Below, piece by piece: positions 6,889 to 21,870 of a DNA stretch of 64,000 nucleotides. The DNA is from Paenibacillus sp. BIHB 4019 (GTDB lineage: Bacteria; Bacillota; Bacilli; Paenibacillales; Paenibacillaceae): positions 1,426,001 through 1,490,000 of the forward strand of contig NZ_CP016808.1 of NCBI RefSeq assembly GCF_002741035.1, in the 5' to 3' direction. The notes under the pieces were generated by a model. It was not told the origin of the DNA and made no database searches. It saw nothing but the letters and a program-made list of their open reading frames with translations. Made by a program: the position numbers and the translations under genes. Position 1 is the stretch's first letter, and each line of letters begins with the position of its first letter.

Positions 6889-7707
6889 ATGCAATCTATA
6901 GAAGGAAAAACAATCGTTGTAACTGGAGCAAGCTCGGGGGTAGGCGCTGCAGCCGTAAAGAAGCTGTTTGAACGCGGGGCTTTGGTTATACCTGTGGGAA
7001 GGTCACATAGTCGAACAGCGGCAATCGCCAAGGAAATCGGGGTTAAGCCGTATACGGCGGACTTTATGAGTTTAGAGAACGTGCGGGAGCTAGCAAATAA
7101 GCTGATGCAGGAGCTTCCTCATATTGATATTTTGGTGAACAATGCAGGAGGAATTCCCGCGCAGACTGGGGCTACAGTTGATGGCAACGAGCCAATCTTC
7201 CAAGTCAACACGCTTTCCCCGCTTCTTCTAACGCTGATGCTTACACCGCATATTCAGAAAAACAAGGGGCGCGTTATCAATACCTCCTCCCGTTCTCACA
7301 AAGGGGCGTCAATTGACAAACAGGATTGGCAAAAAACAGCCGGCCTGCGGTCTCATGCGGTTTATGCCCGCAGCAAGCTGATTACTGGGATGTTATTCCG
7401 AGAATATTACAGGCGATATGGGATTGAATTTGCTGATTTCCACCCTGGCCTTATCCGTTCGGACTTTGGACGATATATGGGGGTTTATGCTTCCATTTTA
7501 AAGACGGTTTTCGCGCCCTTTCTATCGACTCCGGCGCAAGGAGCAGAGACATTAATTCATTTGGCGGAAACGAAGGATAGGCTCGATGGCCGTTATTATG
7601 TGCGTAAGCAAGAAGCCAAAGGCAATCTGTTACTGGAAGATCGATTATTGGCAGGGTGGTTATGGGAGGAGTGTTATAAAAAACTGCACCTTATCGGAGC
7701 TGAATAG
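6889..7707 (+). CDS. Short-chain dehydrogenase/reductase
   Basis: A 272-residue classical SDR of the retinol-dehydrogenase-like group. It has the cofactor motif TGASSGVG (residues 12-19), NNAGG after strand 4, a conserved serine region (INTSSRSH) and the catalytic YARSK. The start codon immediately follows the stop of the upstream reductase, so it belongs to the same transcript, which ends at the inverted repeat near 7826. Two adjacent NAD(P)-dependent enzymes under a TetR-type operator suggest detoxification of a reactive carbonyl compound; this is inference. Confidence 0.88.
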   Translation: MQSIEGKTIVVTGASSGVGAAAVKKLFERGALVIPVGRSHSRTAAIAKEIGVKPYTADFMSLENVRELANKLMQELPHIDILVNNAGGIPAQTGATVDGNEPIFQVNTLSPLLLTLMLTPHIQKNKGRVINTSSRSHKGASIDKQDWQKTAGLRSHAVYARSKLITGMLFREYYRRYGIEFADFHPGLIRSDFGRYMGVYASILKTVFAPFLSTPAQGAETLIHLAETKDRLDGRYYVRKQEAKGNLLLEDRLLAGWLWEECYKKLHLIGAE

Positions 7708-7825
7708 TTAATAGAATGCCCCATTTGCGGCCTTGCCAGCCTATCCCGCGTCGCGTGTACTGCTCCAACTGCTCCAACCGTCCAAGCCTGCGTCTGATGC
7801 AGCCTCCTATCGCTTAAGTCCACAG

Positions 7826-7861
7826 AAAGCCGCCTCTTCTGCACTCAGGTTAGGCGGCTTT
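7826..7861. terminator. Probable bidirectional terminator
   Basis: A perfect 10-bp inverted repeat AAAGCCGCCT/AGGCGGCTTT with a 16-base loop lies 118 bp after the SDR gene. It marks the edge between the conserved operon and the accessory island. Confidence 0.7.
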
Positions 7862-8027
7862 GACAGTCTACAATTATTTTGGCGCATAGCTCTTGAAAAC
7901 CTTCGACAAAACGTTTCTCGCCTGTAGCAGCACTTCCTCCATCGTCAAAAGGTCGAATCTTGCCACCGTGTCCGAACGGGTGATCTAGAATAACCGATAT
8001 GCAACTCTCTCACATTTGCCTCTCTCA
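7862..8027 (-). other. Unassigned stretch, possibly a decayed small gene
   Basis: No intact gene. On the minus strand, two frames joined by a frameshift can be read: MREANVRELHIGYS, then ITRSDTVARFDLLTMEEVLL and a lysine-rich tail ending at about 7877. Codon use looks protein-like, but no family is recognised. Confidence 0.25.
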
Positions 8028-8100
8028 TTACTTCCCTGCTTCATCGCCAGTCGCAACCGGGTTGCTAGAGTATGAAATCCATTCATCCAAGCTGTCCAGA
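8028..8100 (-). pseudogene. 3'-end fragment of a rhodanese-type sulfurtransferase (copy 1)
   Basis: Minus-strand translation gives SLDEWISYSSNPVATGDE followed by a stop at 8028-8030. This matches the C-terminal end of two-domain sulfurtransferases (compare SWSDWSSDVGNPVAKGEE of the intact gene at 19765). Upstream coding is missing. It is the most diverged of the four displaced copies in the island. Confidence 0.6.
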
Positions 8101-8273
8101 TTCGTAGTCATGCTTTTTGACATGATTTATCCGTACTTACAGCGTAAAGGCTTCTAAAAATAATATTAACTTCTTGTTTATGTAATATGCTTTCTAATGG
8201 CCTCTCCATCCTTAATAAACAAGGAGTTGACCCAAAGTCTTATATCATGACGATCCATATCTAAATTTATTCT

Positions 8274-8327
8274 TTATTGTTCCCCCGGAGCAACCGGATT
8301 CCCGCTATCCGAGCTCCAATCACTCTA
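8274..8327 (-). pseudogene. 3'-end fragment of a sulfurtransferase gene (copy 2)
   Basis: Minus strand reads stop-SDWSSDSGNPVAPGEQ-stop. The codon that encodes Trp in the intact gene is TAG here, the same change as in copy 3. Similarity stops at about 8327, where the IS3-type fragment begins, so the two were joined by an insertion or deletion. Confidence 0.6.
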
Positions 8328-8740
8328 GGTATGGGATTCATTTCTTCGCCGAATCTCTGCCAACTTTTTTGTGAGTGCATTCTCCATTTTCAGATATCTC
8401 TTGCGCGCTTCAAATTTCTTGTTCCGAAGCTTTAAGCGGTCCTGTTCATTGAGCTCCTCTAGCGGCTTCTTTTCGCCCTGGAGGTCCTGTACGGCCTCTG
8501 CGTCACTTGCTTAATATTTACGAACCCATGCATATACCTACTGTTAAGAGACACCGTATTTGTCGCTTGCTTTCTGGTAATCGTGATTGTGAGCGATGGT
8601 GTATTGTGTTATTTCCATCCGTTCTTTATAAGTCGTTTTCCGTCCCTTATTTTATGCGAAATCGGGCTTCTTTTGGACATTATAAAAACTCCCATAATGG
8701 TAGAAATAGAGGTGTTGTTTTTCTACTGTCTACTATGATG
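8325..8740 (-). mobile_element. IS3-family orfA remnant (decayed)
   Basis: Minus-strand translation from the ATG at 8680 shows MSKRSPISHKI, and after a frameshift TYKERMEITQYTIAHNHDYQ, KASDKYGVS, VYAWVRKY, LKLRNKKFEARKRYLKMENA and KKLAEIRRRNESH. This is the helix-turn-helix plus leucine-zipper layout of IS3-type OrfA. Three internal stops and a frameshift show that it is dead. CTGTCTACTATGATGGGAG at about 8728 resembles the terminal repeat seen at 11718. OrfB does not follow; the sulfurtransferase fragment does. Confidence 0.7.
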
Positions 8741-8926
8741 GGAGCATACCGCATCCATATTGAGATTAATGGCAAGACCGTTAGCCTCATAATATAATCC
8801 AACTTAATCGCCTGCTTGCAACTGAACATCACCGGATAGTGTCACCGTTGCGCTCTCAAGTAGGGCTCTCATAGTTAAGACTAAAGGCATATTAACATTT
8901 AAAAGTTCTTTTCTCATTTTTCGCGC
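8741..8926. other. No gene recognised
   Basis: Short intergenic DNA between the IS3 remnant and the terminator of the ABC-F gene. A 74-codon minus-strand frame runs through the terminator and is not credible as a gene. Confidence 0.4.
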
Positions 8927-8972
8927 AAAAAAAAAGAACAGGCTATCTTTTCGATAACCTGCTCTTGTTCTT
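8927..8972 (-). terminator. Rho-independent terminator of the ABC-F gene
   Basis: On the minus strand GAACAAGAGCAGGTTATC pairs imperfectly with GATAGCCTGTTC around a short loop and is followed by nine T residues. It lies about 75 bp beyond the stop codon. Confidence 0.8.
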
Positions 8973-9048
8973 GATAGTGAACGTCCTAGATGCCTAATAT
9001 GTTCTTCTAATTCTTGTGGAGTCTTCAATGTAATCAGAAGGTTATCAT

Positions 9049-10788
9049 TTAAAGCGACTTAATCAGCTCTTCCAACTCATCAACCAATACTTTTGCAAGT
9101 TCAAAATCAGTATCTTTTAAAGCCAACTCTATTTTCATTTCAACTAATCTTTTATTTTGTTCCGATTCAAGATAGTCCCTATCGAAATGACTAGCATAAA
9201 TCATCTGTCTAAATTTTTTAATCGTCATTTTCCTAATCGTCTTATCCTCAATGATTAAAACATAATCCATACCATTTACAACAGAATAAAAATCATGAGA
9301 AATCATCAGAATCGCGCCTTTATAGCCTTCAATAGCTTTCTCCAGTGCTATTTGGGAATAGATGTCTAAGTGGCTTGTCGGTTCATCAAGAAGCAATACG
9401 TTTGCTTTACTGGCAGCAGCTTTAGCCAATTGAAGCATATTTTTTTCTCCACCAGATAGAGATTTTATTTTTTGATTAACGATTTCTCCTTCAAAACCAT
9501 AGTTTGCAATATACGTTCTAACTTCATCATAACTCTTAAATCCAGCGTCGATGAATTCTTCTAGTATTGTATTAGATACCGTTAGCACTTCGCCTTGATT
9601 TTGAGATAAATAAGCCTCTTTAACATCAGCATTTATTTCAATTGATTCATGATTATTTTTAAAAATATCTCGGAGTAAAGTCGTTTTCCCGGTACCGTTT
9701 GAACCAATAATGGCTACTTTATCCGTAGATTTTATCTCGAAGTTAACATTGTCTAAAAGCAATTCATCAAAGGCAACACTATAATTATTCACATTTACAA
9801 CAATGGCGTCTTCAATTTCATTATCGATACCAAAACTAATATACGGTTGCTTAATATCAACAAATGGCGCTTTAATTCTACGTGCTTCCAATCTTTCTTG
9901 AAACTTGACTCTAGCTTTTAATGCTTTGCCTCTAGAAGCTTCTGAATTATAAGTTGCGATAGCTCTAAGATTATCAATGATATGCTCGTTTCTCTCTATT
10001 TCTTCATCCTCAGCAACTTTGAGCTCTTGCAACTCAACTTTAGTCTGAAGTAATGAGAAGGTATAATCCATATATCGCCCATCAAACTCTTGGATTTCTG
10101 TATTTTCAAGGTGTATAACTTTGTTGAAGCAATGATTCAAAAGATATCGGTTGTGCGTAACAACTAGCAGCATTCCCTTGTGAGAATTAATAAGATTCTT
10201 AAGCGCATTTAGGTTTTCAAAGTCTAGAAATACATCTGGTTCGTCCATAATCATTAAGTCTGGACTACTAAGCATTTCCTTCATCACTTGAATGAGCTTG
10301 AATTCCCCACCGCTTAGGTCAGATACGCTAAGATCTTTAAGCTTCATAAGGTTGGCTAGATTAAGTTTTTTATTAAGGTTGCTTTCAAAATCCTCCCCGC
10401 CAATTAAATCCAATGCGTCTAAAGCTAATTGATATTTTTCTAATAAGGCATCAATATCCGATGATGTTTCCATTTCCGTAAAAATAGCTGTTATTTCATT
10501 TTGCAACTTAATAAATTCTTCCCCTAAATATTCATAAACGGTTGTTTCTTTCGTTGTGTCGATTTGTGGAAATTGACTTACGTGTCCAATCTTGCAAGTC
10601 GGGTCTATTACTAACTTGCCTTCGAACAAGTATCTTTCTGGATCCATTAAAATATCTATTAATGTACTTTTACCATTCCCGCTTGTTCCTATAAAAGCGC
10701 AATGTTGTGCCTCCTCAAGCGTAAATGATATGTTTTTATATAGTTCTTTTTGCGGAAATGAGAAGGACAAGTTATCAACTTTTATCAT
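9049..10788 (-). CDS. ABC-F family ATPase (possible ribosome-protection antibiotic-resistance type)
   Basis: A 579-residue soluble protein with two ABC domains and no membrane segments. Domain 1 has Walker A GTSGNGKST (34-42), signature LSGGEFKLIQ and Walker B LMIMDEPDVFLD. Domain 2 has GSNGTGKTT, LSGGEKNMLQ and LLLDEPTSHLD. A charged linker of about 90 residues joins them, as in ABC-F proteins that enter the ribosomal E site. DEPDVFLD in domain 1 replaces the usual DEPTNHLD-like sequence. The gene is AT-rich compared with the core genome, lies in the accessory island and has a 150-bp leader with a short ORF, all common for acquired resistance ABC-Fs. A housekeeping EttA-like role cannot be excluded. 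The ATG follows AAAGGAAA. Confidence 0.82.
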   Translation of the reverse strand: MIKVDNLSFSFPQKELYKNISFTLEEAQHCAFIGTSGNGKSTLIDILMDPERYLFEGKLVIDPTCKIGHVSQFPQIDTTKETTVYEYLGEEFIKLQNEITAIFTEMETSSDIDALLEKYQLALDALDLIGGEDFESNLNKKLNLANLMKLKDLSVSDLSGGEFKLIQVMKEMLSSPDLMIMDEPDVFLDFENLNALKNLINSHKGMLLVVTHNRYLLNHCFNKVIHLENTEIQEFDGRYMDYTFSLLQTKVELQELKVAEDEEIERNEHIIDNLRAIATYNSEASRGKALKARVKFQERLEARRIKAPFVDIKQPYISFGIDNEIEDAIVVNVNNYSVAFDELLLDNVNFEIKSTDKVAIIGSNGTGKTTLLRDIFKNNHESIEINADVKEAYLSQNQGEVLTVSNTILEEFIDAGFKSYDEVRTYIANYGFEGEIVNQKIKSLSGGEKNMLQLAKAAASKANVLLLDEPTSHLDIYSQIALEKAIEGYKGAILMISHDFYSVVNGMDYVLIIEDKTIRKMTIKKFRQMIYASHFDRDYLESEQNKRLVEMKIELALKDTDFELAKVLVDELEELIKSL

Positions 10789-10902
10789 AGTATTTCCTTT
10801 CTCTATAACTGAAATGGTGACTATTACTAGGTGTATGGCAAGCTATAGATCTTTAGTTTACCGTTGTTAGAGTAACACTGTTCACAACCAACTTCAATCG
10901 GT

Positions 10903-10935
10903 TTATATCCTATCCCTTGGTGGTCCAAGTGCCAT
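10903..10935 (-). other. Possible 10-codon leader ORF upstream of the ABC-F gene
   Basis: ATG to TAA on the minus strand gives MALGPPRDRI, 114 bp before the ABC-F start and downstream of a TATACT-like box (about 10949-10954, minus strand). The codons CTTGG...CCAAGG also form a small hairpin. ABC-F resistance genes are often controlled by ribosome stalling on such peptides. No good ribosome site is seen, so this is weak. Confidence 0.25.
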
Positions 10936-11095
10936 ATTACTTTAAAAGTATACTAACACGCTTAGGAGAATAAAAAGAATTGGTAAAAATCACGCTATAC
11001 TGACAGCCCGATTTATCCGATAAAGTAAGAAGAGCGGCATGGGGCATCCAATCCACTCATTTTGCATCAATACCACCTAAAGGAGATGTCTGCGA

Positions 11096-11398
11096 ATGCA
11101 ATACCAGTTTTGCCAACAGGTCACGATTGTGGATATGAACGATGAAATTATTTCGGAAGTGTTGTTCGATCATGGGAAGTTCGAAACGGCTGCCTTGTCG
11201 ATCGGGTCCTCCGTTCTGATTCAACAAGTAGGATTGAAGGAATTCAATGTCGTTTACGATAAAAGGGATGGCAAAATCGCTCGTTATAAAATCACGGATA
11301 TCGAAATCGATCTCATCGCGCGACCGCCGCTCACGCGGGTTTACCTCGAGCCGGTGAAGCTTATCGTAGGCCAGCATGATATCGGAATGATGCTTTAA
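11096..11398 (+). CDS. Hypothetical protein, 100 aa
   Basis: No family is recognised. It is a small beta-rich protein with no signal peptide, membrane segment or cysteine cluster (one cysteine at position 6). AAAGGAG lies about 11 bp before the ATG and a strong terminator follows at 11504, so it is likely an expressed single gene. Its GC content and codon use resemble the core genome rather than the AT-rich genes around it. It is transcribed divergently from the ABC-F gene. Confidence 0.6.
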   Translation: MQYQFCQQVTIVDMNDEIISEVLFDHGKFETAALSIGSSVLIQQVGLKEFNVVYDKRDGKIARYKITDIEIDLIARPPLTRVYLEPVKLIVGQHDIGMML

Positions 11399-11503
11399 AC
11401 GAATTAGCAAATCTGGACCGCTGCAGCCCTTCGAAGCTCGTCCGGTGCGGCCTCCCATCTCTTATTCTTAGAGCAAGTCCAATCAACTTGCTTCCATGCG
11501 AAG

Positions 11504-11538
11504 GACCGCGTGCCGTCTAGGCTGCACGCGGTCTCTTT
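11504..11538 (+). terminator. Terminator after the 100-aa hypothetical gene
   Basis: A 10-bp perfect stem GACCGCGTGC/GCACGCGGTC followed by TCTTT. Confidence 0.75.
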
Positions 11539-11544
11539 GTTGAT

Positions 11545-11706
11545 TTCAAGCATAAAAATACATCGCCCCAGGCACTCGGCCCACATAGCGATGTATTCAA
11601 AATCCGCAAACTATAGTCGCCAGTGGCGACAGGGTTCCGCGGGTCGCTACTCCAATCACTCTAGCTCCCCGCATAAAGCTTCACATTCTTAAACCCGGCT
11701 TCCTGC
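11545..11706 (-). pseudogene. Displaced 3' end of a sulfurtransferase gene with its flank (copy 3)
   Basis: Minus strand from 11706 reads QEAGFKNVKLYAGS-stop-SDWSSDPRNPVATGD. This is almost identical to the C-terminus of the intact gene, but one Trp codon is TAG. Downstream, the sequence around ATACATCGCCCC and its partner GCGATGTAT matches the flank of copy 4 (13757-13843), so copies 3 and 4 are one repeat of about 180 bp. Similarity to the intact gene stops at base 11706, directly before the IS3 end. Confidence 0.75.
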
Positions 11707-11717
11707 ACTTGTACCTC

Positions 11718-11990
11718 TGTCAATAGTGTAGACACAAGAAACCGAGAGAGTTAAGCAGCCATTCGGTACCTGCGTTCGCATTCATTAGGTGTGAGATACC
11801 CGATGGTCGAATGAATACGTTTGGCATTGTAGAAGCAGAGAATGTATTCAATGATGCGTCTGCATGCTTGTTCGAGTGTCTTGAACCGCTCCAAATAAAT
11901 GAGTTCCTTTTTAAGAACGCTATGGAACGCCTCGATGCAAGCATTGTCATAGCAGTTGCCTTTGCGACTCATACTAGCCTTCATTATGTA
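11718..11990 (-). mobile_element. IS3-family orfB 3' fragment with right end
   Basis: Minus-strand codons 11984-11751 encode MKASMSRKGNCYDNACIEAF, then HSVLKKELIYLERF, then NAKRIHSTIGYLTPNE. This is the C-terminal part of an IS3-type DDE transposase including its catalytic glutamate (NACIEAF). The rest of orfB and all of orfA are missing, so it is inactive. TGTCAATAGTGTAGACA near 11718 looks like the element's terminal repeat and sits 12 bp from the end of sulfurtransferase copy 3. Confidence 0.85.
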
Positions 11991-12135
11991 TATTTTTAGA
12001 CGGGCTTGGTAGTCATGAGAAGCATACTGACTGGCAGGTAAAATAACTAAGAAACTACAGTACGTATTGAATTAAGGTGGAAAGGTGGATCTAGTCGGCT
12101 GATTAGTTACGAAATCAGAGACTCTTGTAAAACTC
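11991..12135. other. No gene recognised
   Basis: AT-rich spacer between the IS3 fragment and the small membrane-protein gene. No convincing ORF, terminator or repeat is seen. Confidence 0.4.
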
Positions 12136-12303
12136 TTATATAATAAAATTAGCAATCAGGAATATTATCCACAATAAACCACTTATTATTATTCCTATCT
12201 TCTCTTTTTTTGTTTTATACTTCTTATATATAAGAGTATATAAAATAAATAAAGGCCATATACTAACCAAAATTATTATTAATATTTCCGAAGTAATATC
12301 CAT
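12136..12303 (-). CDS. Small two-helix membrane protein, 55 aa (candidate immunity protein)
   Basis: ATG at 12303 with an excellent GGAGGTG ribosome site 5 bases away. The product begins MDITSEILIIILVSIWPLFI, has a Lys-rich turn (YKKYKTKKEK) and a second hydrophobic helix (IGIIISGLLWIIFLIANFII), so two membrane helices with a positive loop are predicted. It lies 151 bp downstream of, and in the same direction as, the secreted 273-residue protein, with a hairpin terminator between them. Size and position fit a bacteriocin immunity protein; this is inference. No family is recognised. Confidence 0.6.
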   Translation of the reverse strand: MDITSEILIIILVSIWPLFILYTLIYKKYKTKKEKIGIIISGLLWIIFLIANFII

Positions 12304-12387
12304 TCACCTCCAACTTCTTTAATTATTTTTCCATTTAATAATATTTGATTTACCTGATTCCAATATGTGCAGTTTAACATAAAAATT

Positions 12388-12431
12388 GCACATAAGTAAA
12401 AAAGATTAGCTAATCAGTTTTACTTATGTGC
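12388..12431 (-). terminator. Hairpin terminator after the secreted-protein gene
   Basis: The 14-base arms GCACATAAGTAAAA/TTTTACTTATGTGC are perfect; the loop contains GATTAGCTAATC, itself palindromic. On the minus strand AATTTTT follows. Partial read-through could link the two flanking genes. Confidence 0.75.
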
Positions 12432-12454
12432 TTGAAATTACCGTTTTCTATTCA

Positions 12455-13276
12455 TTAAATGCTTTGTAGAATTGCATAAGCGCTACCCATCGAACTATTT
12501 GCATCGCTACCCGCAGACCAAATAGCAGTAGCGAATCCAGCAACACCTATTGCTCCTCCAATAGCACCAACGACACTAGCTGCTGTTAAAACTGTTAACC
12601 CTAATGCGGCCATAAGTAAGGGAGCATTTATATTAATGGTATTTCTAGCTGCGACAACATCGCCAGCATAATGCTTGAAATTTATTACTGCTAATTTATT
12701 CGGACCATCTGTAAGTACTGACTTGGTTACTGCATCATCTTTTGCTCCACCAGTATCTAAAAACATTGCCCCGTCGATTGATAGCCTATTTTTAATTCCA
12801 GAAGCAGTTGTCATAGTTGTAGTATATGGAGTAGGGAGAAGTATATGAGTATAACGATCCTCCCAAGTAATGTAAGAGTAGCGTCCTCCGCTCCCGAGAA
12901 CTGTATATGAAAATCTTTGATTCATTGGTGTGTTCTCATAGCTTGAATCACTGTAAATCACCTCATTTAGATCGTACTTTTCACCATTTATTTCTGCCTC
13001 ATTCTCATTAATTACTTCGATTGTTGTTACATCTGAATTTTCTGTAACACTACCATCATTAAAGTTATTAATTTCGTTAGTATTTAATAGGATCTTATTA
13101 TCAATAATAGTTCTAGTTATAGTTCTATATGTTGTTCCAATAATTTCTCCATCTTTAAAAATCTCCTTCTGTTGTTCCAGTAGCACTAATTCTTGACTTT
13201 TCGCTGCAAAAGTCTGCATGGGAGACAGCGCGAATATCAAAGATAACGTTAAAATAAATGCAATTGCTCTTCTCAT
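12455..13276 (-). CDS. Secreted protein with hydrophobic Gly/Ala-rich C-terminus (candidate bacteriocin precursor)
   Basis: 273 residues. A clear signal peptide (MRRAIAFILTLSLIFALSPM, then QTFAA near 21-25) is followed by a soluble, beta-rich polar region to about residue 215. The last ~57 residues are strikingly different: hydrophobic, small-residue-rich and almost free of charge (LLMAALGLTVLTAASVVGAI, GGAIGVAGFATAIWSAG). This precursor-plus-hydrophobic-tail plan recalls SdpC-like killing factors and pore-forming bacteriocins, although no sequence match is claimed. The ATG has GATGAGGA upstream. Low GC marks it as acquired. A membrane-anchored surface protein is the alternative. Confidence 0.6.
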   Translation of the reverse strand: MRRAIAFILTLSLIFALSPMQTFAAKSQELVLLEQQKEIFKDGEIIGTTYRTITRTIIDNKILLNTNEINNFNDGSVTENSDVTTIEVINENEAEINGEKYDLNEVIYSDSSYENTPMNQRFSYTVLGSGGRYSYITWEDRYTHILLPTPYTTTMTTASGIKNRLSIDGAMFLDTGGAKDDAVTKSVLTDGPNKLAVINFKHYAGDVVAARNTININAPLLMAALGLTVLTAASVVGAIGGAIGVAGFATAIWSAGSDANSSMGSAYAILQSI

Positions 13277-13756
13277 ATTTTATTCCTCATCTCTTCATTT
13301 TTTGCATTCAGTTCCACAAATAAATTAACAACTCCTCATCGTGGATAAATTAGAATGTTAATTCAATTTTCCCATACTTATCCATAAATTTCAATAAAGT
13401 ATATTCGTATTTTCCGAAAGACCGCATGCGGGACACAAAATGGAGCTTTAGCTTATTCAAGCTCACACGGTTGTTGATTTCTTGTTGATTGGTTTTGAAA
13501 ATGTGAGGGCTATTGAATCGCTTCTGAGTTTATAATTTAGTTACAATGCATGAAACAACGCCTGTATCGTGAATAAGGGGCCCATACAGCATTTTCCTAC
13601 GAGGAGGGGGCTGATCGGCCTTCTTTGTATGCTTACAGCGGTGGGGATCAACATGATCGTTGGGCTGTACGATACATGAAGAAGCATACAAACAAACGCT
13701 CGGTTCTGGGCTTTCTGAAAGTATTTACAAGGAGCGAGCGTTGACTCCATGTTGAC
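13277..13756. other. No gene recognised; one long-spaced inverted repeat
   Basis: AACGCTCG (13693) and CGAGCGTT (13734) form a hairpin with a 33-base loop that may be a decayed terminator. The open frames here on the minus strand run through the sulfurtransferase repeat and are not credible genes. Confidence 0.35.
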
Positions 13757-13942
13757 TTCGAGCGTAAAAAAATACATCGCCCCGAGCATTCAGCCCACGT
13801 GACGATGTACTCCCAGACACATACTATAAATGCTTCTCGGCCCTTACTCTTCCCAATCCGCAACCGGGTTACTAGAATCCGAACTCCAATCACTCCAACT
13901 CCCCGCATAAAGCTTCACATTCTTAAACCCTGCCTCCTGCGA
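13757..13942 (-). pseudogene. Displaced 3' end of a sulfurtransferase gene with its flank (copy 4)
   Basis: Minus strand from 13942 reads QEAGFKNVKLYAGSWSDWSS, then DSSNPVADWEE and a stop at 13844. Frame and stop are intact. Over 81 bp it differs from the intact gene at only a few positions, then similarity ends sharply at 13940, the same gene position at which copy 3 ends. The 13757-13843 flank with ATACATCGCCCC repeats that of copy 3. Confidence 0.78.
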
Positions 13943-14117
13943 AGCAGAGGTCAGGAAATGCTGCTATTGCAAATACTTTCTTCAAAAGGTTAATCCCATT
14001 AAATAAGCTCTTACTGGTCTCCGGTCGCTATTTCAGTACTTATTTGTAATAGGGTTCAGAGTAATGCTCTACCGGCAAATTTCACTACAGTTTTAGTACC
14101 TAAAGTATTACTAGGCT

Positions 14118-14540
14118 TTACTCATCTGCATCTTCATTTTTAAAGATTTCTCTCAAACCAATATGAGTTGCTATTGCAAAATCCATTAATTTGCTATCTC
14201 CAGGGTGAATTCTAAGGCTCATGAGTTTGAATTTGAAATGACCAATCGCAAGTTTTCTTTCATTATATTGAAATTGAATAAATGATTTCACAGCATCATA
14301 AATGCTACATATAACCATAGGGAACATTTGCTCCCACTCTTTATTTCCTCTCAAATCATCTTGCATTAGAGCCTCATTTTTAAAGCCGATGTGACCTTGA
14401 CAGGGCTCAATTACGAAATCAATAATGGCGAAATGTTCCGACCCAGCTTGTCTAATGTATCTGGTTTGTTTTTCAATACGTTCTACTACAGAAATAATAG
14501 ATACTTTTTCCACATCATAAGGTGGATGAATCCAAATCAT
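14118..14540 (-). CDS. Hypothetical protein, 140 aa
   Basis: Not recognised. A soluble acidic protein beginning MIWIHPPYDVEKVSIISVVE, without signal peptide or membrane segment. AAAGGAG lies 8 bases before the ATG. It sits in the accessory island beside another unrecognised cytoplasmic protein. Such orphan pairs are often immunity proteins left from toxin loci, but nothing in the sequence shows this. Confidence 0.55.
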   Translation of the reverse strand: MIWIHPPYDVEKVSIISVVERIEKQTRYIRQAGSEHFAIIDFVIEPCQGHIGFKNEALMQDDLRGNKEWEQMFPMVICSIYDAVKSFIQFQYNERKLAIGHFKFKLMSLRIHPGDSKLMDFAIATHIGLREIFKNEDADE

Positions 14541-14628
14541 AGAGAACTCCTTTCTGGTTTAGCATGTAATATGATCATTAACTTATAGTGCCTGTATGCG
14601 CTTCCCTCATCCGATATTTTGAAGTCAT

Positions 14629-14733
14629 TTATGATAAAGCTTTCCCGTCAGTCAAAGCTGAAACGAGAGCTTCGAGACGATTAGGTCGATCCAGTACTCC
14701 ATCAGCTTGTGCGATAGATTTCCCAACACGGTT
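14629..14733 (-). pseudogene. Orphan C-terminal coding fragment
   Basis: Between two genes the minus strand encodes SNRVGKSIAQADGVLDRPNR, then LEALVSALTDGKALS and a stop, preceded by a stop and with no start codon. Composition is protein-like, suggesting a gene end left by deletion. Family unknown. Confidence 0.3.
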
Positions 14734-15466
14734 ACTCTACCGTCTGGTAGCGCTCATTATGAATCGCCTGCTCGATCCATCCCTCAATCTGATGCTTAGG
14801 TAGTAGGATATTACCTCCAAAAGCATTGTTCCTATGTATGCCCCAGTCTCCATATACTAGCATATGGTACTGACTATCTATTCGTTTTACGAGCCCCCAT
14901 ACGCCGAGATCTCCCTGTGCGCCAGCACTTATAAATAGCCAATCCTGGTAATTGAATATGCACGGCTTCCCAAACATTTCAAAATCCTCCAAGTACCCGT
15001 TACTCCCATCTCTGATCGGAAATCGCTTATTGTAATCCTTAATCATCCATACCTCTAAAACCTTTACTCGCAACCAAGCTTTGAAATTATCCTGCTCAAG
15101 TACACATTCGATGGAGCAACGAACAAAAGAAGAATGCTCAATCTCTTCGGGATGTGAATCCCATCCATTGAGGCTGGAGGATACCGGAGTGTAAAGCATC
15201 CAAAAAGGGTTTCCTACCACCATATGAAAAGGATGACATACTTTCACCGTTCTAACCTGACCTTGCTCTGGCGGGCGATCTGACCACATCCAATGGGGGG
15301 CATCTAGCGGAGGAACATCGTTGTCGTAGTCAGACCATTCCATAACATCATTTTCGAAGCCAACAATATCAAAAAACTCACTCTCCATCTTTACGTGCTC
15401 CGATAAACTTTTGCATGTGCTGCACACCAAGGCGATTACTTCTTGCTCCATCTGTTCCAACTCCAT
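14732..15466 (-). CDS. Hypothetical protein, 244 aa
   Basis: Not recognised. Rich in Trp, His and acidic residues (ENDVMEWSDYDNDVPPLDAP, PHWMWSDRPPEQGQ), no signal peptide and no membrane segment. The C-terminal half has several aromatic beta-type stretches ending GGNILLPKHQIEGWIEQ. The size and tryptophan-rich character recall SMI1/SUKH-like or other immunity proteins of toxin islands, which is only an impression. The start has no strong ribosome site, so it may lie a little downstream. Confidence 0.5.
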   Translation of the reverse strand: MELEQMEQEVIALVCSTCKSLSEHVKMESEFFDIVGFENDVMEWSDYDNDVPPLDAPHWMWSDRPPEQGQVRTVKVCHPFHMVVGNPFWMLYTPVSSSLNGWDSHPEEIEHSSFVRCSIECVLEQDNFKAWLRVKVLEVWMIKDYNKRFPIRDGSNGYLEDFEMFGKPCIFNYQDWLFISAGAQGDLGVWGLVKRIDSQYHMLVYGDWGIHRNNAFGGNILLPKHQIEGWIEQAIHNERYQTVE

Positions 15467-15505
15467 TCTATCTCGTCCGATTGCTCAGAGCCTTACGTTT
15501 GCTAT

Positions 15506-15928
15506 TTAAATAATAACCACTTTATCAAATGACATGCCATTCCCAGATGTCCGTAATGCTTCAATATTCTTGAGTGATAACTGTTTAATAAATTTCCGTC
15601 GATTATGATACACACAGTTAACTAATAAAACCTTAGACAAAAAACTTCGAGCCCCATAGTGTATTTTCACTCTTCCTCCTACACTGTTAATTATCATTCG
15701 TGCAGATGCAGCAAAACAATACCTACTTATGTTTAACTATGACCAAGTTATACCCAATATTGTATAACCCCGTATTTTTGCTGTCACAAACTGCCCTGAA
15801 TATTCTAATAAATCATCTCTATCTCCTTTGTTATATAGCAGCTTAATATTGTTATCAATATCCATGTAGTAATTAGAGGGATTAGCAGCTTTAGAAACAT
15901 TATTTTTCTCGTTCGTATATGGTATCAT
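15506..15928 (-). pseudogene. Decayed gene interrupted by an in-frame TAG
   Basis: One minus-strand frame runs from 15928 to 15506 with a single TAG at about 15737. The first part is MIPYTNEKNNVSKAANPSNY up to GYTILGITWS. After the stop the same frame continues LNISRYCFAASARMIINSVG to SFDKVVII. No family is recognised. Confidence 0.4.
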
Positions 15929-16039
15929 TCCTTACAAAGGTTCCCTATAGACATTATTTAATTGTTTCTGATTTTTCTTTAAAATCGATAAGTTATCTAT
16001 GTATGCATCATTCTCCTCATAAGGATTAACCTTAACCCT

Positions 16040-16419
16040 CTCATATTGGTCTTTTTTTGTCCGATGATCAGTTCAAACGCCAGTATTCCCTTCGTCCCAT
16101 CTGTCTGTTCTGTATACGTATGTACGTAAGCTTGTGTAAAAACAACTTCGCGAATAGTTTGCTCATTTCTCGTTACTTGAATGCTACAATTCCGATAGAT
16201 ATCTCCATCTACTCCAGCTTCAGTAAACGCCTAAGTATAAAGCATATCGGAGTTATTCGTATTCGATACCACAGGGGGTAACAGACGGAGAAGAACCTCT
16301 CCTCGTATGTATAGCTTTTATGTAACCTTGGTAGACTTCGCTACCGAATCAACTGGCATAGTATTCGTATAATTAAAATAAACAATCTGGCCATCAGAAA
16401 ATAAATTGATTTTTTCCAG
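16040..16419 (-). pseudogene. Decayed gene with several stops
   Basis: In one minus-strand frame LEKINLFSDGQIVYFNYTNT, then (after two stops) AGVDGDIYRNCSIQVTRNEQ and VHTYTEQTDGTKGILAFELI can be read. The composition of an extracellular beta-rich protein is clear, but the gene is broken. Family unknown. Confidence 0.4.
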
Positions 16420-16928
16420 ACTTACGCTTAATGTGTAAATAAATATTCAACATACGTTCTCCTTTTCAAAATATAATAACATATTCAATATTTATCTCGA
16501 ATCAAATTTATTCCACAATAAGTATCGTTATACCTTTTTATGTTTCACCCACCTTTCATTATTTTTTTTGAAATTCAAGACTTTGCTATTTGGAGAGCTT
16601 ACGATTACAAGAATGTTTTATTGATTAATAGTTGTTGGTTTAATTAGTATTAGGGTAATTTCCTTTAGTCGCATTCAACAAATACAGACTAACAAAAGCT
16701 TTCACTGTCATCTGCTAGAGTAAAACGATATAAACTCCTCCATCATTCAAAACTATTGTCTCGCCTCTAGGGACTTTTGAAGGTTTTAAGAGCTAGGAGA
16801 AGTTATTAAGAATTCCTTCCATTTCACTATAGTCACTAACGCAAAAGTTTTGATATTCATTGAAATAATTCCTTCTTCTTCTGCGCCAACTAGGATGTCA
16901 ACTAGGTAATTACGCCCTACTTTGTAGG
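16420..16928. other. AT-rich DNA without a convincing gene
   Basis: Multiple stops on all frames. A minus-strand stretch near 16780-16920 reads VGRNYLVDILVGAEEEGIIS and MNIKTFALVTIVKWKEF, perhaps another gene fragment, but has no credible start. Confidence 0.35.
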
Positions 16929-17050
16929 CTAAATATATGTATTCGTGTTAAGCTCGTGAAGCACTTTGGCAAGCACCTTCTCAGCCTCTGCTTTGATTTC
17001 GCACCCTGTTTTACTCTTTCACCTCATCCTTCTCGTCTATGAATGACGAC
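16929..17050 (-). pseudogene. Relic of a tyrosine recombinase (phage-type integrase) N-terminus
   Basis: Minus-strand codons read KSKTGCEIKAEAEKVLAKVL, then HELNTNTYI and a stop. Before a frameshift, DEKDEVKE can be read. This closely follows the N-terminal arm-binding region of Tn916/phage-type integrases, where KSKxGFKTKKEAE and ELNxGTY are typical. Nothing of the catalytic domain is recognisable, so the gene is dead. It is the only integrase trace in the island. Confidence 0.5.
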
Positions 17051-17405
17051 CAAATTCAACAACACAACACCAAGCATTCCATCTTTTACTCACACACGTT
17101 CGTATAAAAATAATCCTATATTACCTACTTTTTTTATAATAAAAGCGCTTAATCGTCCAGTTATGAACAATCAGGCGCATTTATTGCTAGTTCAATAATT
17201 TAAAACAAGTAAATCATGAGATATTCAAGTGTGTCAATTATATAAAAATTAGATATATGCTCTATACAATAATTAATACTCTTCGTCAAACGGTTACATG
17301 TGTTGCTACCACAGACTCCAATATATACATATCTTCTACTCGATTTATTTCTACATCCCTCATAACTCTTCAAGCAAGATACTTCTCCAAACACTTTCAT
17401 ATTAA
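17051..17405. other. AT-rich DNA, no gene recognised
   Basis: Short frames of 61-66 codons exist on both strands, but none has a ribosome site or protein-like composition. Confidence 0.35.
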
Positions 17406-17798
17406 AACGAATTCAAGATCAAACTATCTACTAAAAAATTAATACTTAAGTACATATCATTCAATAAGCGATTACCACTTTATATTGGAATTATATTATT
17501 CATCTCATTAGTCACTACTAGGGTTTCCTTCAAAAACAATTGGTTTATTATACCTATAATTACTGTTAAAGCAGCGTTTATCCTTTACTTCATAAAAATA
17601 ACAGCTCAAATAAAGACGAGGAAGTATGGATCAGCAGATGAATTTCAAAAAATGAGATACAACATACTAATTGATATCCTTAAAAGAAATGAAATATATT
17701 ATGAAAATGATAAAACTAGAACACGAGAAAAAATGCAATTACTTATTAGCACCTTGAATAATAATGTTTCAAAGAGCAAAAAAAACAAGAGGAATTAA
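17406..17798 (+). pseudogene. Membrane-protein coding frame lacking a start codon
   Basis: A 130-codon open frame with protein-like composition: hydrophobic RLPLYIGIILFISLV and FIIPIITVKAAFILYFIKIT, then a charged helical tail ending NNNVSKSKKNKRN. No ATG, GTG or TTG precedes the hydrophobic part, and a TAA lies just upstream. It is either a 5'-truncated gene or one using a non-standard start. Family unknown. Confidence 0.35.
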
Positions 17799-18206
17799 GA
17801 AACATGCTTCTCGAATGCTTGCTTAAAAAAGTTATATAATCACTCTCAGGTCAGGCTTAACTTTGTATATTTTAATCATCAACATTTTGTGATTTTCTTC
17901 GGTTTAATATTATAAATCGTGAAAACGAAGCTCTTGAATTCATGAATATTTTTAATTTTATGTCTGTGTGAATATAAATTTATTAAGGGTGCTGACGTTA
18001 TAAATAAAGGTCTTGAATATTTTTCGATCTTTATTATTTAATATAAAATTCATATTTTAGAATGTTCAAGGTCCTAATTTACTGATATACGTTATAATAA
18101 GGATACATGCTCTCGCACTCCTTAATATACCCCATAATTTGAATAATATTGTTAAATGTACTAGACTATAGACAGAGTGAATTAATATAAAATAAGGAGT
18201 GCTTCT
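17799..18206. other. AT-rich upstream region of the 241-aa gene
   Basis: No gene seen. A promoter for the next gene may lie here, for example TAGACTATAGAC near 18161, but no clear -35/-10 pair is visible. Confidence 0.35.
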
Positions 18207-18932
18207 ATGGAAAATACATTTAAAATGAATCAAGCAGGTAGATTAATTAATATCATTACTAACGCTAAGAAAATGGATAGAACTATGGGAAGCAAACAGG
18301 CTTGGGCTCGAATATTTGATATCGATAAAAACGACACTTCAATGATTTTCCAAAAATTAGCTCATACAATGGATCTAATTCTACAAGTTAAAAACGAATT
18401 AAGCAGTGTTTTAGGAGCTGATCTATACATTACTCCACTCGAGAAAGTTGAAAAAGCATTTTTTGAACAAAATTTAAATGGATATTTCCATACTTTTATT
18501 GACTCTATTGATGCTACAACAATTTATGGTTTAAATATATGTGCTGTAAGATTAGCGGAGAAAACTTCAATCATACTTACAGAAGAAGAGGTTCTAGAAC
18601 TTCTTAATACAATAGCCTCATTAAAAGAAGAAGTATATACCTCTAATTTGCCTAAAGAACTAATTGAATTAATTATAATTAAACTAGTAGAAATTCAGGC
18701 AGCGATAGATAATTACAGAATGTGGGGTTCTAACAAGCTTGAACAATCTTTGGATTCTATGATTGGTGGCTTGTTAAGAAACAAAGATGAATTAGTTGTA
18801 AACGAAAAAAATCCTGTACTGAAGAAGATTATACAATTTATTGGAATTTTCAGAAATGCGGTATCTACTGCTGTTGAAGTAAATGAATTGGTCGAATCTA
18901 CTAGCGAAACAATTAGACAATTAATTGAGTAA
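18207..18932 (+). CDS. Hypothetical protein, 241 aa
   Basis: Not recognised. An all-helical, acidic soluble protein starting MENTFKMNQAGRLINIITNA, with amphipathic helices throughout and no signal peptide. It lacks cysteine-rich or catalytic-looking motifs. The start has AAGGAG eight bases away, so it is probably expressed. The gene is very AT-rich (many AAA, ATT and GAA codons) compared with the core genes right of 19.7 kb and sits at the inner end of the accessory island. All-helical orphan proteins of this kind occur in phage-defence islands, but no such function is shown. Confidence 0.6.
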   Translation: MENTFKMNQAGRLINIITNAKKMDRTMGSKQAWARIFDIDKNDTSMIFQKLAHTMDLILQVKNELSSVLGADLYITPLEKVEKAFFEQNLNGYFHTFIDSIDATTIYGLNICAVRLAEKTSIILTEEEVLELLNTIASLKEEVYTSNLPKELIELIIIKLVEIQAAIDNYRMWGSNKLEQSLDSMIGGLLRNKDELVVNEKNPVLKKIIQFIGIFRNAVSTAVEVNELVESTSETIRQLIE

Positions 18933-19764
18933 CTATAAATAAAAAATCGCCTACAGAAGATACCAATAATTTAAAATATTCGCAAATCCAGATGAATAGT
19001 TTCCCTTGTGGGGAGTGGCTTTCGTGCTTCTCCCCTTTGCTGGCCTTACGCTCCGGGAATTGAGCGTTGCAACCTCCCCAATCCGGAGCCTGTTGTGCTG
19101 CTGGAGCAGCACAGTTGGGTTCGGAGCGTAAGGTCTGGGGTCGTAGTGAGCGATTATCAGAAACCCACGCTTAGGAAGAAGGAGTATAAGTTCATTCAAC
19201 TTCTATTGTTGTACAACAATAACTTCCTGCGGGCTCGCTTAGCCTTACGCTTTGAAGTGTCGGAACGTAAGACTGCGTAAGCTTCTTTAAGCTAGCGCTC
19301 CGCTTTTGCCCCTTCTGGATCTGTGAATGAACAATGCCCTTAGCCTCCACCGACAACAAGTCGATCACCAAATCCGTTCCAGTCAGACGCTCCGAACGGC
19401 TCACGGTCGTGACGGTTTGCGCGGCGGAACGGCTCTGGCCTCGTTGCGATTACTCCCCCGAACCATGGGTTACCGACAACACTAAGGAAAACTAAGTGAA
19501 GTGCTCCTCTTAGGAGGTCAAGCTCCTGCTACGCACTAAAGGTTGCGACGAGCCAGCTTGTGAATGAAAGGAAGCAAAGCCCCCGAGCGTTCAATAACCA
19601 TTTGACCCGACCGCCGCAGTCGATGGCTCCGGGCCCCCTGCAATTGCTTCCTTCAGATTTTTGTTTGAAAACCGTTGACAGAAAAGCTAAAAGAGGCCGC
19701 AATAGCCCACCTCCCGGCAACCTGCAGCAGCCTCATACCTGTGTCCGAAGCGGCTTCTTAGCTC
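18933..19764. other. GC-rich gene-free stretch at the island edge
   Basis: About 830 bp with no credible ORF on either strand. It carries several CTTACGCTCC-like words in both orientations and no recognisable tRNA, IS or known RNA. Base composition changes abruptly from the AT-rich gene at its left. Confidence 0.5.
19044..19133. repeat. Nested inverted repeat
   Basis: Outer arms CCTTACGCTCCG and CGGAGCGTAAGG are perfect, 66 bp apart. At the centre GTGCTGCT and AGCAGCAC form a second perfect hairpin (19095-19112). A weaker CTTACGCT/ACGTAAG pair recurs near 19253-19275. No T-run follows. Confidence 0.6.
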
Positions 19765-20613
19765 TTATTCCTCACCCTTAGCAACCGGGTTACCAACGTC
19801 CGAGCTCCAATCGCTCCAGCTCCCCGCATAAAGCTTCACATTCTTAAACCCTGCCTCCTGCAGCGCAAAAAAATTCGGCGTAGCGGTCACACCTGACCCG
19901 CAGTATACAATGATCTCATCATCCTTCGACAGCGCGGCAAAGCGTTCCGCCTGCTCCTCCGGCGACTTCCACACGCCATCCACATGGCGGCTTTCCACCC
20001 AAAAATGATTAATCGCCCCCGGAATATGTCCGGCCGCCGGGTCCATCGGCTCGACTTCCCCCCGATAGCGAGGCGCTTCACGCGAATCAATGATGACGAT
20101 TCCGTCCTTCCCAATGCTCTCCTTCACATAAGAGCGGCTTACCAGAATCCCATCCCGCAAAGCTGGTTCAAAAATAACCCCTGCCACCACCTCCGGCTCT
20201 TCTAAGCTAACGGGATAATCTGCTGCCTGCCAAGCGGTGAAGCCGCCCTCCAGCACATACACTTGCCCCTCATGCCCCATCCATTCCAGCAGCCAGCGCA
20301 GGCGCGAGGCCATGGCTCCACCTTGGTTATCGTAAGCGACTACGGTCGTCTGATTGCCGATTCCAATCCGCCCCAGAAAAGCAGCCAATACTTCTGGCTC
20401 TGGCAAAGGATGGCGTCCACCTTCCCCATCTGGGCGCTTCGGCCCCGACAGATCATGACTAAGATCGGCATAATAAGCACCTGGAATATGCGCCTCTTCA
20501 TACGATTTCCGGCCTGTCTCAGGCTCCGTCAGCAAATAACGCGTATCGACAATTACTGTATTTTCAGCACCCAAACGCTCAAGCAGCCAATCTACCTTTT
20601 TAAAATAAGTCAT
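19765..20613 (-). CDS. Sulfurtransferase (two rhodanese domains, mercaptopyruvate-type)
   Basis: 282 residues with an inactive N-terminal and an active C-terminal rhodanese domain. The catalytic loop CGSGVTAT is the form typical of 3-mercaptopyruvate sulfurtransferase (SseA/MPST). It transfers sulfur to thiophilic acceptors such as cyanide or thioredoxin. An upstream in-frame codon at 20667 has no ribosome site, while the ATG at 20613 has GGAGGA ten bases before it and gives the usual family length. Its 3' end is repeated, with decay, at 8.0, 8.3, 11.6 and 13.9 kb, so it looks like an insertion target. Confidence 0.92.
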   Translation of the reverse strand: MTYFKKVDWLLERLGAENTVIVDTRYLLTEPETGRKSYEEAHIPGAYYADLSHDLSGPKRPDGEGGRHPLPEPEVLAAFLGRIGIGNQTTVVAYDNQGGAMASRLRWLLEWMGHEGQVYVLEGGFTAWQAADYPVSLEEPEVVAGVIFEPALRDGILVSRSYVKESIGKDGIVIIDSREAPRYRGEVEPMDPAAGHIPGAINHFWVESRHVDGVWKSPEEQAERFAALSKDDEIIVYCGSGVTATPNFFALQEAGFKNVKLYAGSWSDWSSDVGNPVAKGEE

Positions 20614-20706
20614 CCCGCTCAGCTCCTCCAACCTATTGTCTGGCTTATCCCAGCTATATATCGCCATCGTACCCGATAAATCCCTTGAGGAGCAACCATT
20701 TGCCCA

Positions 20707-21870
20707 CTATTTCCTCAGCAAAATCACATCATCCAGCGAGCCCTCAAAGTCTATTACCCTGGAAGCCTTGCCTTTAAGATATTTATCGAAAAAATCGACC
20801 AGCAGCGCATTCATCACGCTCTCCATCCGATCCGGATCTATGGCGCCAAGCAAGGCAACCTCAACCTCCTCATCGCCAATTTTGCTTTTCGAAATCGGGT
20901 TCTCCGCCATAATCTCGCTATAATCGGTAAAATTGCTGTGCGTGCTGTTTAAAATCGTTGCTAAATAAGCTTCGCTAGCGGCATTTTGAAACGGAAAGCT
21001 GAGATAATGCCCTCCAAGCGGGCTGTCATTTTGCAGCAAAAGCACTGGCTTATTTATCGGTCTATGCCACATGGAGCTATAGAAAAAACCATCTAAATTC
21101 GCCATGGCTTTGACCCGCTCAGATACGAACGCCAGCTTTAAAGCTGCACTTCCCCCGAAGGACATGCCGACAGCGCCAATCTTTTCAGCATCAATATGGC
21201 TGTAGAACGCAGCATTCTCCCGCTCGGCCTCCGCCAAAAAATGCTCAAGAGCCGTAAGGCTATCCGTCACCCACAGTTCATTGCGATCGATCATATTGGG
21301 CTGGCTAGCAATGATTCGCTCATAATAGTCATGATGCTCCTTGAAGCTCGCCTCTTTCCCTTCCCCACCAAGCCATGCTGCGTATGTCTGGAATATTTCC
21401 ACGCCTTTTGTCGCGTCCGCGACCACAGCCTCCGGCAGACCGCTCACATCAAACTTGGATATGCTGCCATCAGGGAGCTCATACGATCCATCTCCCAGAT
21501 GCCCGATGCTGAGCACGATATAACCGTGGGACGCAAGCTCCTCAAACTGTACGGTATTAGCTTCACAAGAAAGGCAGTAGCCATGGCTAAAAAGAAGCAG
21601 CGGATGCTTGCCGTCTGCAACGGGCGCGTTCATATAGGAATTGGTATCAATGCCGCTCGTCCCGGGCAAAATTTCTTCCCTTATATATTTTTTCAAGCAC
21701 CCTTCCTGAGCCTCTCCTGCTGGATAAAAGCATAGACAAGGAATCAATCGTTTTTCATCCTGTTTTTCATCCTTTTGTTCATCCCGTTCATACTCATAAT
21801 ATAAGCTAGAGCAGCCTACGTCATAAGCCCCGCTAGGTTTTCTGAGCTTGTGTTTCTCTTTGATTTTCAT
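20707..21870 (-). CDS. Alpha/beta hydrolase, platelet-activating-factor acetylhydrolase type
   Basis: 387 residues. The nucleophile elbow GMSFGG (serine) is preceded by GAV. LLFSHGYCLSCEANTVQFEE resembles the oxyanion region of PAF-AH isoform II and related lipases, and GHLGDGSYELPDGS follows. A conserved late ILNSTHSNFTDYSE may supply the catalytic histidine. It lacks a signal peptide, so it is probably cytoplasmic. The ATG at 21870 has AAGGGGA upstream and is preferred to the codon at 21933. It likely hydrolyses a short-chain ester; the substrate is unknown. It is in the same direction as the sulfurtransferase, 93 bp away. Confidence 0.82.
   Translation of the reverse strand: MKIKEKHKLRKPSGAYDVGCSSLYYEYERDEQKDEKQDEKRLIPCLCFYPAGEAQEGCLKKYIREEILPGTSGIDTNSYMNAPVADGKHPLLLFSHGYCLSCEANTVQFEELASHGYIVLSIGHLGDGSYELPDGSISKFDVSGLPEAVVADATKGVEIFQTYAAWLGGEGKEASFKEHHDYYERIIASQPNMIDRNELWVTDSLTALEHFLAEAERENAAFYSHIDAEKIGAVGMSFGGSAALKLAFVSERVKAMANLDGFFYSSMWHRPINKPVLLLQNDSPLGGHYLSFPFQNAASEAYLATILNSTHSNFTDYSEIMAENPISKSKIGDEEVEVALLGAIDPDRMESVMNALLVDFFDKYLKGKASRVIDFEGSLDDVILLRK

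Follow-up and report, generated by a model that had tools for sequence, protein, structure and literature searches.

In streptococci, integrative and mobilizable elements (IMEs) occupy the 3' ends of rpsI, rpmG and rplL, where tandem accretion with cis-mobilizable elements (CIMEs) is described in the accessible portions of two reports (PMC5357655, PMC5704250). Those portions depict a tyrosine integrase acting at the 3' end of a protein-coding gene, restoration of that gene, displacement of resident elements and integrase-less tandem remains, all of which have counterparts at a sulfurtransferase gene of Paenibacillus sp. BIHB 4019. This gene was analysed in a 64,000-nt stretch (NZ_CP016808.1, positions 1,426,001–1,490,000 of the forward strand; hereafter, the window) and in relatives. 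Displaced fragments with a common boundary, a gene restored by element sequence and a cognate integrase at the site, the marks of 3'-end islands and IMEs, were all found. Unlike in streptococcal IMEs, the rows reach six or seven units per genome, many units contain one or a few genes, and the target is a different gene. The 3' end of the sulfurtransferase gene very probably serves a dedicated tyrosine-integrase family as its attachment site, and repeated insertion there would have built head-to-tail rows of units. The displaced copies, their common boundary, the exchange of gene tails, the association of the gene with one integrase clade and the recurrence of single units across species form the basis for this reading.

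Islands in tRNA genes are mapped by Islander from a restored gene and a displaced fragment, according to the available part of its description (PMC4383910). Both features recur here, whereas the target here is protein-coding. The same part gives 3919 islands, 125 tandems of at least two and 4 of at least three, numbers not directly comparable with those below because each Islander member must have its own integrase. Salmonella Genomic Island 1 (SGI1) sits at the 3' end of thdF/trmE in tandem arrays of up to six, as stated in the accessible text of two sources (PMC2297512, PMC8409611). It resembles the present system in its site in a protein gene and in its tandem arrays, whereas SGI1 arrays repeat one large element and the units here vary. 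Integron cassettes likewise are small units arranged in rows; their cargo differs, they lack a recombinase gene, and each terminates in a recombination site. In contrast to integrons, the site here lies within a coding gene, the units are larger and the site's integrase has an arm-binding domain; a search of 12 stretches upstream of the gene (up to 15 kb) with an integrase hidden Markov model found no integrase, IntI-type or other, beside this platform.

The process is of a known kind at an apparently undescribed site, and what appears to be new is the site, the integrase, the scale and the cassette-like make-up. The site and the integrase family, found in many genomes across the order, are apparently unreported in the literature searched: no report of a sulfurtransferase gene as an attachment site was found among the matches listed in the open-licence literature, and the words sulfurtransferase and rhodanese do not occur in the accessible portions of PMC5704250, PMC5357655 and PMC12884075. 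The stretch downstream of one gene would be a readable record of acquisition in a large genus; its units can be searched for uncharacterised cargo, and the integrase and its site are a testable pair.

Target gene and displaced 3' ends in the window

The intact target gene (19765–20667, minus strand) encodes a two-domain rhodanese-type sulfurtransferase (Pfam PF00581, E 3.9e-40); its best NCBIfam match, 3-mercaptopyruvate sulfurtransferase, scores 137 bits, under the cut-off of 250 for that model. The 16-nt core AGCTGGAGCGATTGGA (19806–19821, minus strand; codons SWSDW) is the predicted crossover segment, judging from a pattern match and from a break in identity at the core end between related genes.

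The first-pass annotation of this stretch had noted four displaced copies of the gene 3' end in the orientation of the gene, with an integrase relic between. Repeat search, blastn and a profile of the gene 3' end bore this out: all four lie downstream (leftward) of the gene on its strand (minus). Copy 4 (13844–13947; profile E 9.7e-22), with core AGTTGGAGTGATTGGA at 13885–13900, reaches gene position -97, and copy 3 (11616–11707; E 1.4e-17), with core AGCTAGAGTGATTGGA at 11651–11666, reaches -97/-98; each was detected by all three methods. Copy 2 (8274–8328; core-like ACCTAGAGTGATTGGA at 8315–8330) and the decayed copy 1 (8040–8086; core-like AGCTTGGATGAATGGA at 8078–8093) are weaker and, besides the repeat search, need the profile for detection (E 1.9e-7 and 0.0024, the latter a weak match). 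When the gene was compared with its own genome by blastn, it returned itself and only copies 4 and 3 (115 and 88 bits). The in-register repeats are 11598–11706, 13832–13940 and 19753–19861, at 70–84% identity to the reference copy, together with 8274–8328 and 8034–8085.

Copies 3 and 4 do stop matching the gene at one base, as had been claimed (gene position 19860/19861). Beyond the stop codon they have in common a 45-nt repeat (11554–11598 and 13768–13812; 82%), of which the one behind copy 4 (13768–13812, minus strand) is terminator-like, the hairpin being judged by eye. A scan of positions 7000–21000 with Rfam gave zero matches at gathering scores. A TAG codon in copies 2 and 3 had been taken as a sign of duplication; because the same TGG-to-TAG change occurs in displaced copies of three relatives (G025, G067, G026), it is weak evidence for this. 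The end of copy 3 lies about 12 nt from an IS3-like end (11706–11719, by eye), and this insertion sequence (IS) may have cut copy 3; copy 4 stops at the identical gene position with no IS there.

Crossover core and exchanged tails in relatives

Sixty relatives were searched with the gene, 51 of which matched, and the gene with up to 19 kb downstream was examined; copy counts are lower bounds because the regions were limited to about 20 kb or by the ends of contigs. Of 39 downstream regions, 26 yielded profile matches, 51 in all; a reversed-sequence control yielded none. Among 48 genomes of the genus with a gene locus, at least one displaced copy is present in 34, at least two in 19, at least three in 10 and at least four in 3, counting the long displaced ends of G010 and G019 (one per genome), which were added by hand. 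Downstream copies on the gene strand total 68 in these 48 genomes; seven others, in G069, G070 and G027, are upstream of a gene and share its strand, and 17 further copies are on pieces without the gene. Arrays are not confined to the genus: they are present in other genera and a second family, with six displaced copies in G247 and seven over two adjoining stretches in G325. The core pattern is found in 48 of 51 genomes of the genus (reversed pattern, 0 of 51) and in 196 of 392 genomes of the order (reversed pattern, 2).

Displaced copies usually start 57 nt before the stop codon, at the 16-nt core AGCTGGAGYGATTGGA (codons SWSDW): the start falls at profile positions 61–66 in 66 of 90 copies, further left in 16 and further right in 8. 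The boundary at 19860 in copies 3 and 4, which extend to 97 nt before the stop and thus 40 nt past the usual boundary, is a local feature, whereas the boundary that recurs throughout the genus corresponds to 19821. A few copies outside the window are also much longer than the usual 57 nt. In one genome (G157, L285), a long displaced copy about 8.9 kb downstream of the gene holds about 500 nt of it.

For comparison of the flanks, 32 matches without core-like sequence (one of them a gene) were dropped, and then 21 of 106 with a profile start below 58 or short flanks, leaving 85 copies. In a subset of 80, preselected for starting at the core, identity to the copy's own gene is 25.7% (maximum, 38%) over the 50 nt to the left, 92% in the core and 63% in the 41-nt tail; because 80 of the 85 chosen copies were used, the chance-level left flank holds only for start-selected copies.

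Comparison of the genes with one another gives independent evidence for the crossover position. In 107 pairs of genes with bodies at least 80% alike, identity is 85–88% ahead of the core, 95 and 97% across the two core halves, 63% over the next ten bases and then 68–77% to about the stop codon; these pairs are non-independent because they have genomes in common and G001 was entered twice (L036, L244), which added one self-pair and doubled some others. The drop from 97 to 63% at the core end indicates that gene tails have been exchanged there. In a single pair (G016/G068), a body identity of 97% is followed by values of 30, 80, 40 and 64%; other close pairs, e.g., G071/G027, have no identity break after the core. 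The C-terminal tail of the sulfurtransferase would be replaced at each insertion.

Insertion most likely proceeds as follows. The circle of an element would pair its core with the core in the gene, and the integrase would exchange strands within the 16-nt segment encoding SWSDW. As the element would bring its own last dozen or so codons, stop and terminator, the gene would be restored with a new C-terminal tail, and the old tail would end up behind the far end of the element, ready for the next element to repeat the cycle. The integrase gene would often decay or be absent, yielding integrase-less units, mostly of 1–8 kb, with varied cargo. Catalysis by the integrase and circularisation of the units are both presumed in this scheme.

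Repeated integration that restores the gene and pushes the old end away, as originally proposed, is supported by the sharp boundary, the exchanged tails and the linkage of an integrase to the gene in 12 of 12 genomes (see below). These same features bear on the idea that no site-specific enzyme acted and that segmental duplication or homologous recombination via short tails produced the gene-end pieces. A few long gene-like copies fit that idea (542 bp at 97.6% in G157, 240 bp at 92% in G010 and 178 bp at 91% in G019), though whole-gene tandem duplication, which the first-pass annotation had named as a finding that would refute its proposal, does not account for most copies. Given the common start in 66 of 90 copies, the tail exchange at the core end and an integrase linkage of 12/12 versus 0/35 in controls, an origin without an enzyme is very improbable. 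A transposon duplicating a 16-nt target at the gene would equally be expected to leave a core on both sides of each unit. This origin is the most improbable of those considered: the units have no common transposase, their right ends have in common only short motifs or recurrent end types, and the integrase linkage would be left unexplained. A second right-end sequence, ...GTTCGTGGGGGRRTAAGA, recurs ahead of the core in at least 10 genomes of several genera (e.g., L034 and the L158-type loci L228, L221 and L231). One recurrent right end was also read in frame, which gave noise.

Integrase clade at the site

A tyrosine-integrase relic, already suspected from the window itself, is real: it lies at 16860–17126 on the minus strand, the strand of the gene, comprises an N-terminal part and has 7 stops inside. 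It is 58% identical over 89 residues to a relic in G032, which has Arm-DNA-bind_4 and SAM-like domains and itself shares 70% identity with the integrase of G475 and 52% with that of G471, so the window relic is a dead relative of the site's own integrase family. Broken integrase genes adjoin the array in G003 and G070, and two short peptide patterns from these integrases, used in a contig scan, matched only records of Paenibacillus sp. LHD-38 and Bacillus sp. FJAT-26390.

At E ≤1e-40, 52 of the 344 genomes of the family have a match to the G070 integrase, which served as the probe. Identity is 58% or higher in G070, G003, G471, G279, G106, G287, G285, G286, G157, G440, G303 and G475, and also in G241 (contig C14), G441 and G486. 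In all 12 genomes with surroundings examined (G070 through G475), the clade integrase lies 1.1–7.6 kb beyond the sulfurtransferase stop codon and converges with the gene; leaving out G070 and G003, from which the probe came, 10 of 10 independent genomes show this arrangement. An integrase-bearing element beside this gene in relatives, as the original proposal anticipated, is thus present. The G486 integrase (66%, partial) is 6 kb downstream of the gene and on its strand; in G441, the gene and the clade integrase are each close to a contig end; and the G241 contig C14 is a 4.7-kb piece without a sulfurtransferase gene. An intact G241 integrase on contig C29, considered as a member, falls outside the clade, with no sulfurtransferase gene on the stretch examined. 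As a control, integrases at most 46% identical were compared by eye and are near the gene in 0 of 35 genomes where the gene was found: both are on one contig in 14, no closer than 42 kb (G398, with the integrase on the 5' side), and on different contigs in 21, where a contig break could conceal a neighbouring integrase.

Seven of the 12 linked integrases have stop-free frames of at least 376 aa (G471, G106, G287, G285, G286, G303, G475), and five are broken or short (G003, G070, G157, G440, G279). Members of the clade have Arm-DNA-bind_4, SAM-like and Phage_integrase domains. The arm-binding, SAM-like and catalytic domains are also those of integrases of invertible or satellite phage elements; in contrast, searches of phage records (29 matches, all below 60%, the best listed at 34%), viral contigs (no match) and plasmids (13 matches, the best listed at 42%) found no member of the clade. 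The combination of integrase and site that a prophage or phage satellite should have was likewise not found in phage genomes. The core pattern occurs in 82 stretches of viral contigs; 80 loci were rescored with the gene-end profile, and the best (E 0.0025) was judged to be chance. Among serine recombinases (PF00239; 51 genomes, by eye), none was seen less than 20 kb from an array, the nearest, at about 21 kb in G067, being broken.

Inverted copies of the gene's current tail were observed in G471 (L275, 12173–12365; 100% over at least 193 bp) and G475 (L288, 14543–14719; 99.4% over 177 bp); inversion of the integrase-bearing stretch is therefore conceivable in these genomes. In G475, the right end of the array and the current tail are joined at the core, inverted, 6.7 kb downstream, and the same right end is present at a direct site further on; such a junction of right end, core and tail would be of the type expected of a circle or a tandem copy. 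In G003, a 498-aa frame with DUF4062 and tyrosine-recombinase domains (L057, 5937–7430, plus strand) ends about 160 nt before a displaced copy.

Several observations weigh against use of the gene end as an attachment site for this clade. No displaced copy lies in the region examined in 14 of 48 genomes, which is partly explained by a short stretch (G062), a contig break (G026) and a next copy 88 kb off (G064; no PF00589 match on that contig). A comparison of 12 locus pairs for an empty site beside an occupied one showed blocks in common and no clean pair. Ends that differ between copies had been regarded from the outset as a possible refutation, and 24 of 90 copies, window copies 3 and 4 included, do start outside the profile interval, the other 66 keeping to it. 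Complete integrase lists for 12 genomes place a tyrosine integrase by the array only in G003, G070 and G241, and the G241 stretch examined has no sulfurtransferase gene. Both the window relic and the G032 relics are on the gene strand, whereas all 12 linked integrases converge with the gene. An inverted repeat is expected around a tyrosine-recombinase core; the one found here is weak, with a mean score of 3.56 versus 3.20 in shuffled sequence and strong matches in 8 of 77 cases versus 3.9 expected (maximum in shuffles, 10).

Units between the cores

Of 80 intervals between neighbouring cores, 73 remained after exclusion of those shorter than 300 bp or ending at a gene; they span 0.4–17 kb, with a median of 3.0 kb. 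One open reading frame (ORF) of at least 100 aa is present in 20 of the 73, two in 13 and three in 18. The Pfam comparison covered 132 of 210 unit ORFs, with short ORFs, one 17-kb unit and a few very long ORFs excluded; no family has more than five members, so the units are without a common recombinase. Relaxase is absent from the 25 commonest families of this set, in which no search aimed at relaxase, oriT or transfer functions was made. The cargo includes an MFS transporter, a GNAT acetyltransferase, an FAD oxidoreductase, an RCC1-repeat protein, an ABC-F ATPase, an Mrr-type endonuclease (G010) and an NB-ARC/NACHT protein beside the G032 gene; 2 of the 132 ORFs match the Pycsar-cyclase model, and part of the cargo looks like phage defence.

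Single units recur in different species. An inner unit of G060 matches the first unit of G068 (92.6%); the match begins 2 nt outside the left core and runs to 17 nt beyond the point where the right core starts. A 1.34-kb unit is common to G061 and G069 (92.5%) and is present in G071 from 39 nt in, and G071 and G027, whose genes are 96% alike, have blocks in common in differing order. This recurrence of single units points to movement, and the frequent decay of the integrase points to remains. It is about evenly balanced whether the integrase-less units are CIMEs, each having arrived with its own integrase and lost it, with none moved in trans. The integrase is broken beside the gene in 5 of the 12 linked genomes, relics are present in G000 and G032, and tandem accretion with CIMEs is the IME pattern described in the accessible portion of PMC5704250; many units are too small and tightly packed for deleted elements, with one ORF of at least 100 aa in 20 of 73, and whole units recur across species and positions, also in changed order.

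That the units are true cassettes, moved singly in trans by the clade integrase, is plausible, though somewhat short of an even chance. The units common to species from core to core, the varying unit order in close relatives and the lack of any common recombinase (no Pfam family in more than five of the 132 ORFs) are consistent with this; a helper in the same cell has to be assumed, most arrays seen have no integrase near, and homologous recombination of larger pieces could equally spread units. A broader proposal, tentative and leaning towards doubtful, is that Paenibacillaceae and a neighbouring family possess a cassette system: the house-keeping sulfurtransferase gene would be the platform for recombinase-less, single-operon cassettes moved singly in trans, each arrival rewriting the C-terminal tail. 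If units do move in trans, this would be integron-like gene gathering in Gram-positive bacteria.

Three units can be delimited in the window, all on the minus strand. The unit from the gene core to the copy-4 core (13901–19805) contains the integrase relic and ORFs at 14118–14540, 14732–15466 and 18207–18932 without a clear family. The last of these (241 aa) has no Pfam match, and a Cas12a model, the only one that it hits in NCBIfam (16 of 300 bits; E 0.0015), appears to be a chance match. The unit from copy 4 to copy 3 (11667–13884) contains an ORF without a Pfam match (12455–13276) and an IS3-type transposase fragment (11751–11984). The unit from copy 3 to copy 2 (8331–11650) contains an ABC-F-type ATPase gene (9049–10788), the product of which scores under every named-subtype cut-off seen in NCBIfam. 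This unit matches portions of array units in G022 (91%) and G071 (89%), and the ABC-F gene region is also present in arrays of G010, G022, G027 and G071, its position in the row differing in G027 and G071.

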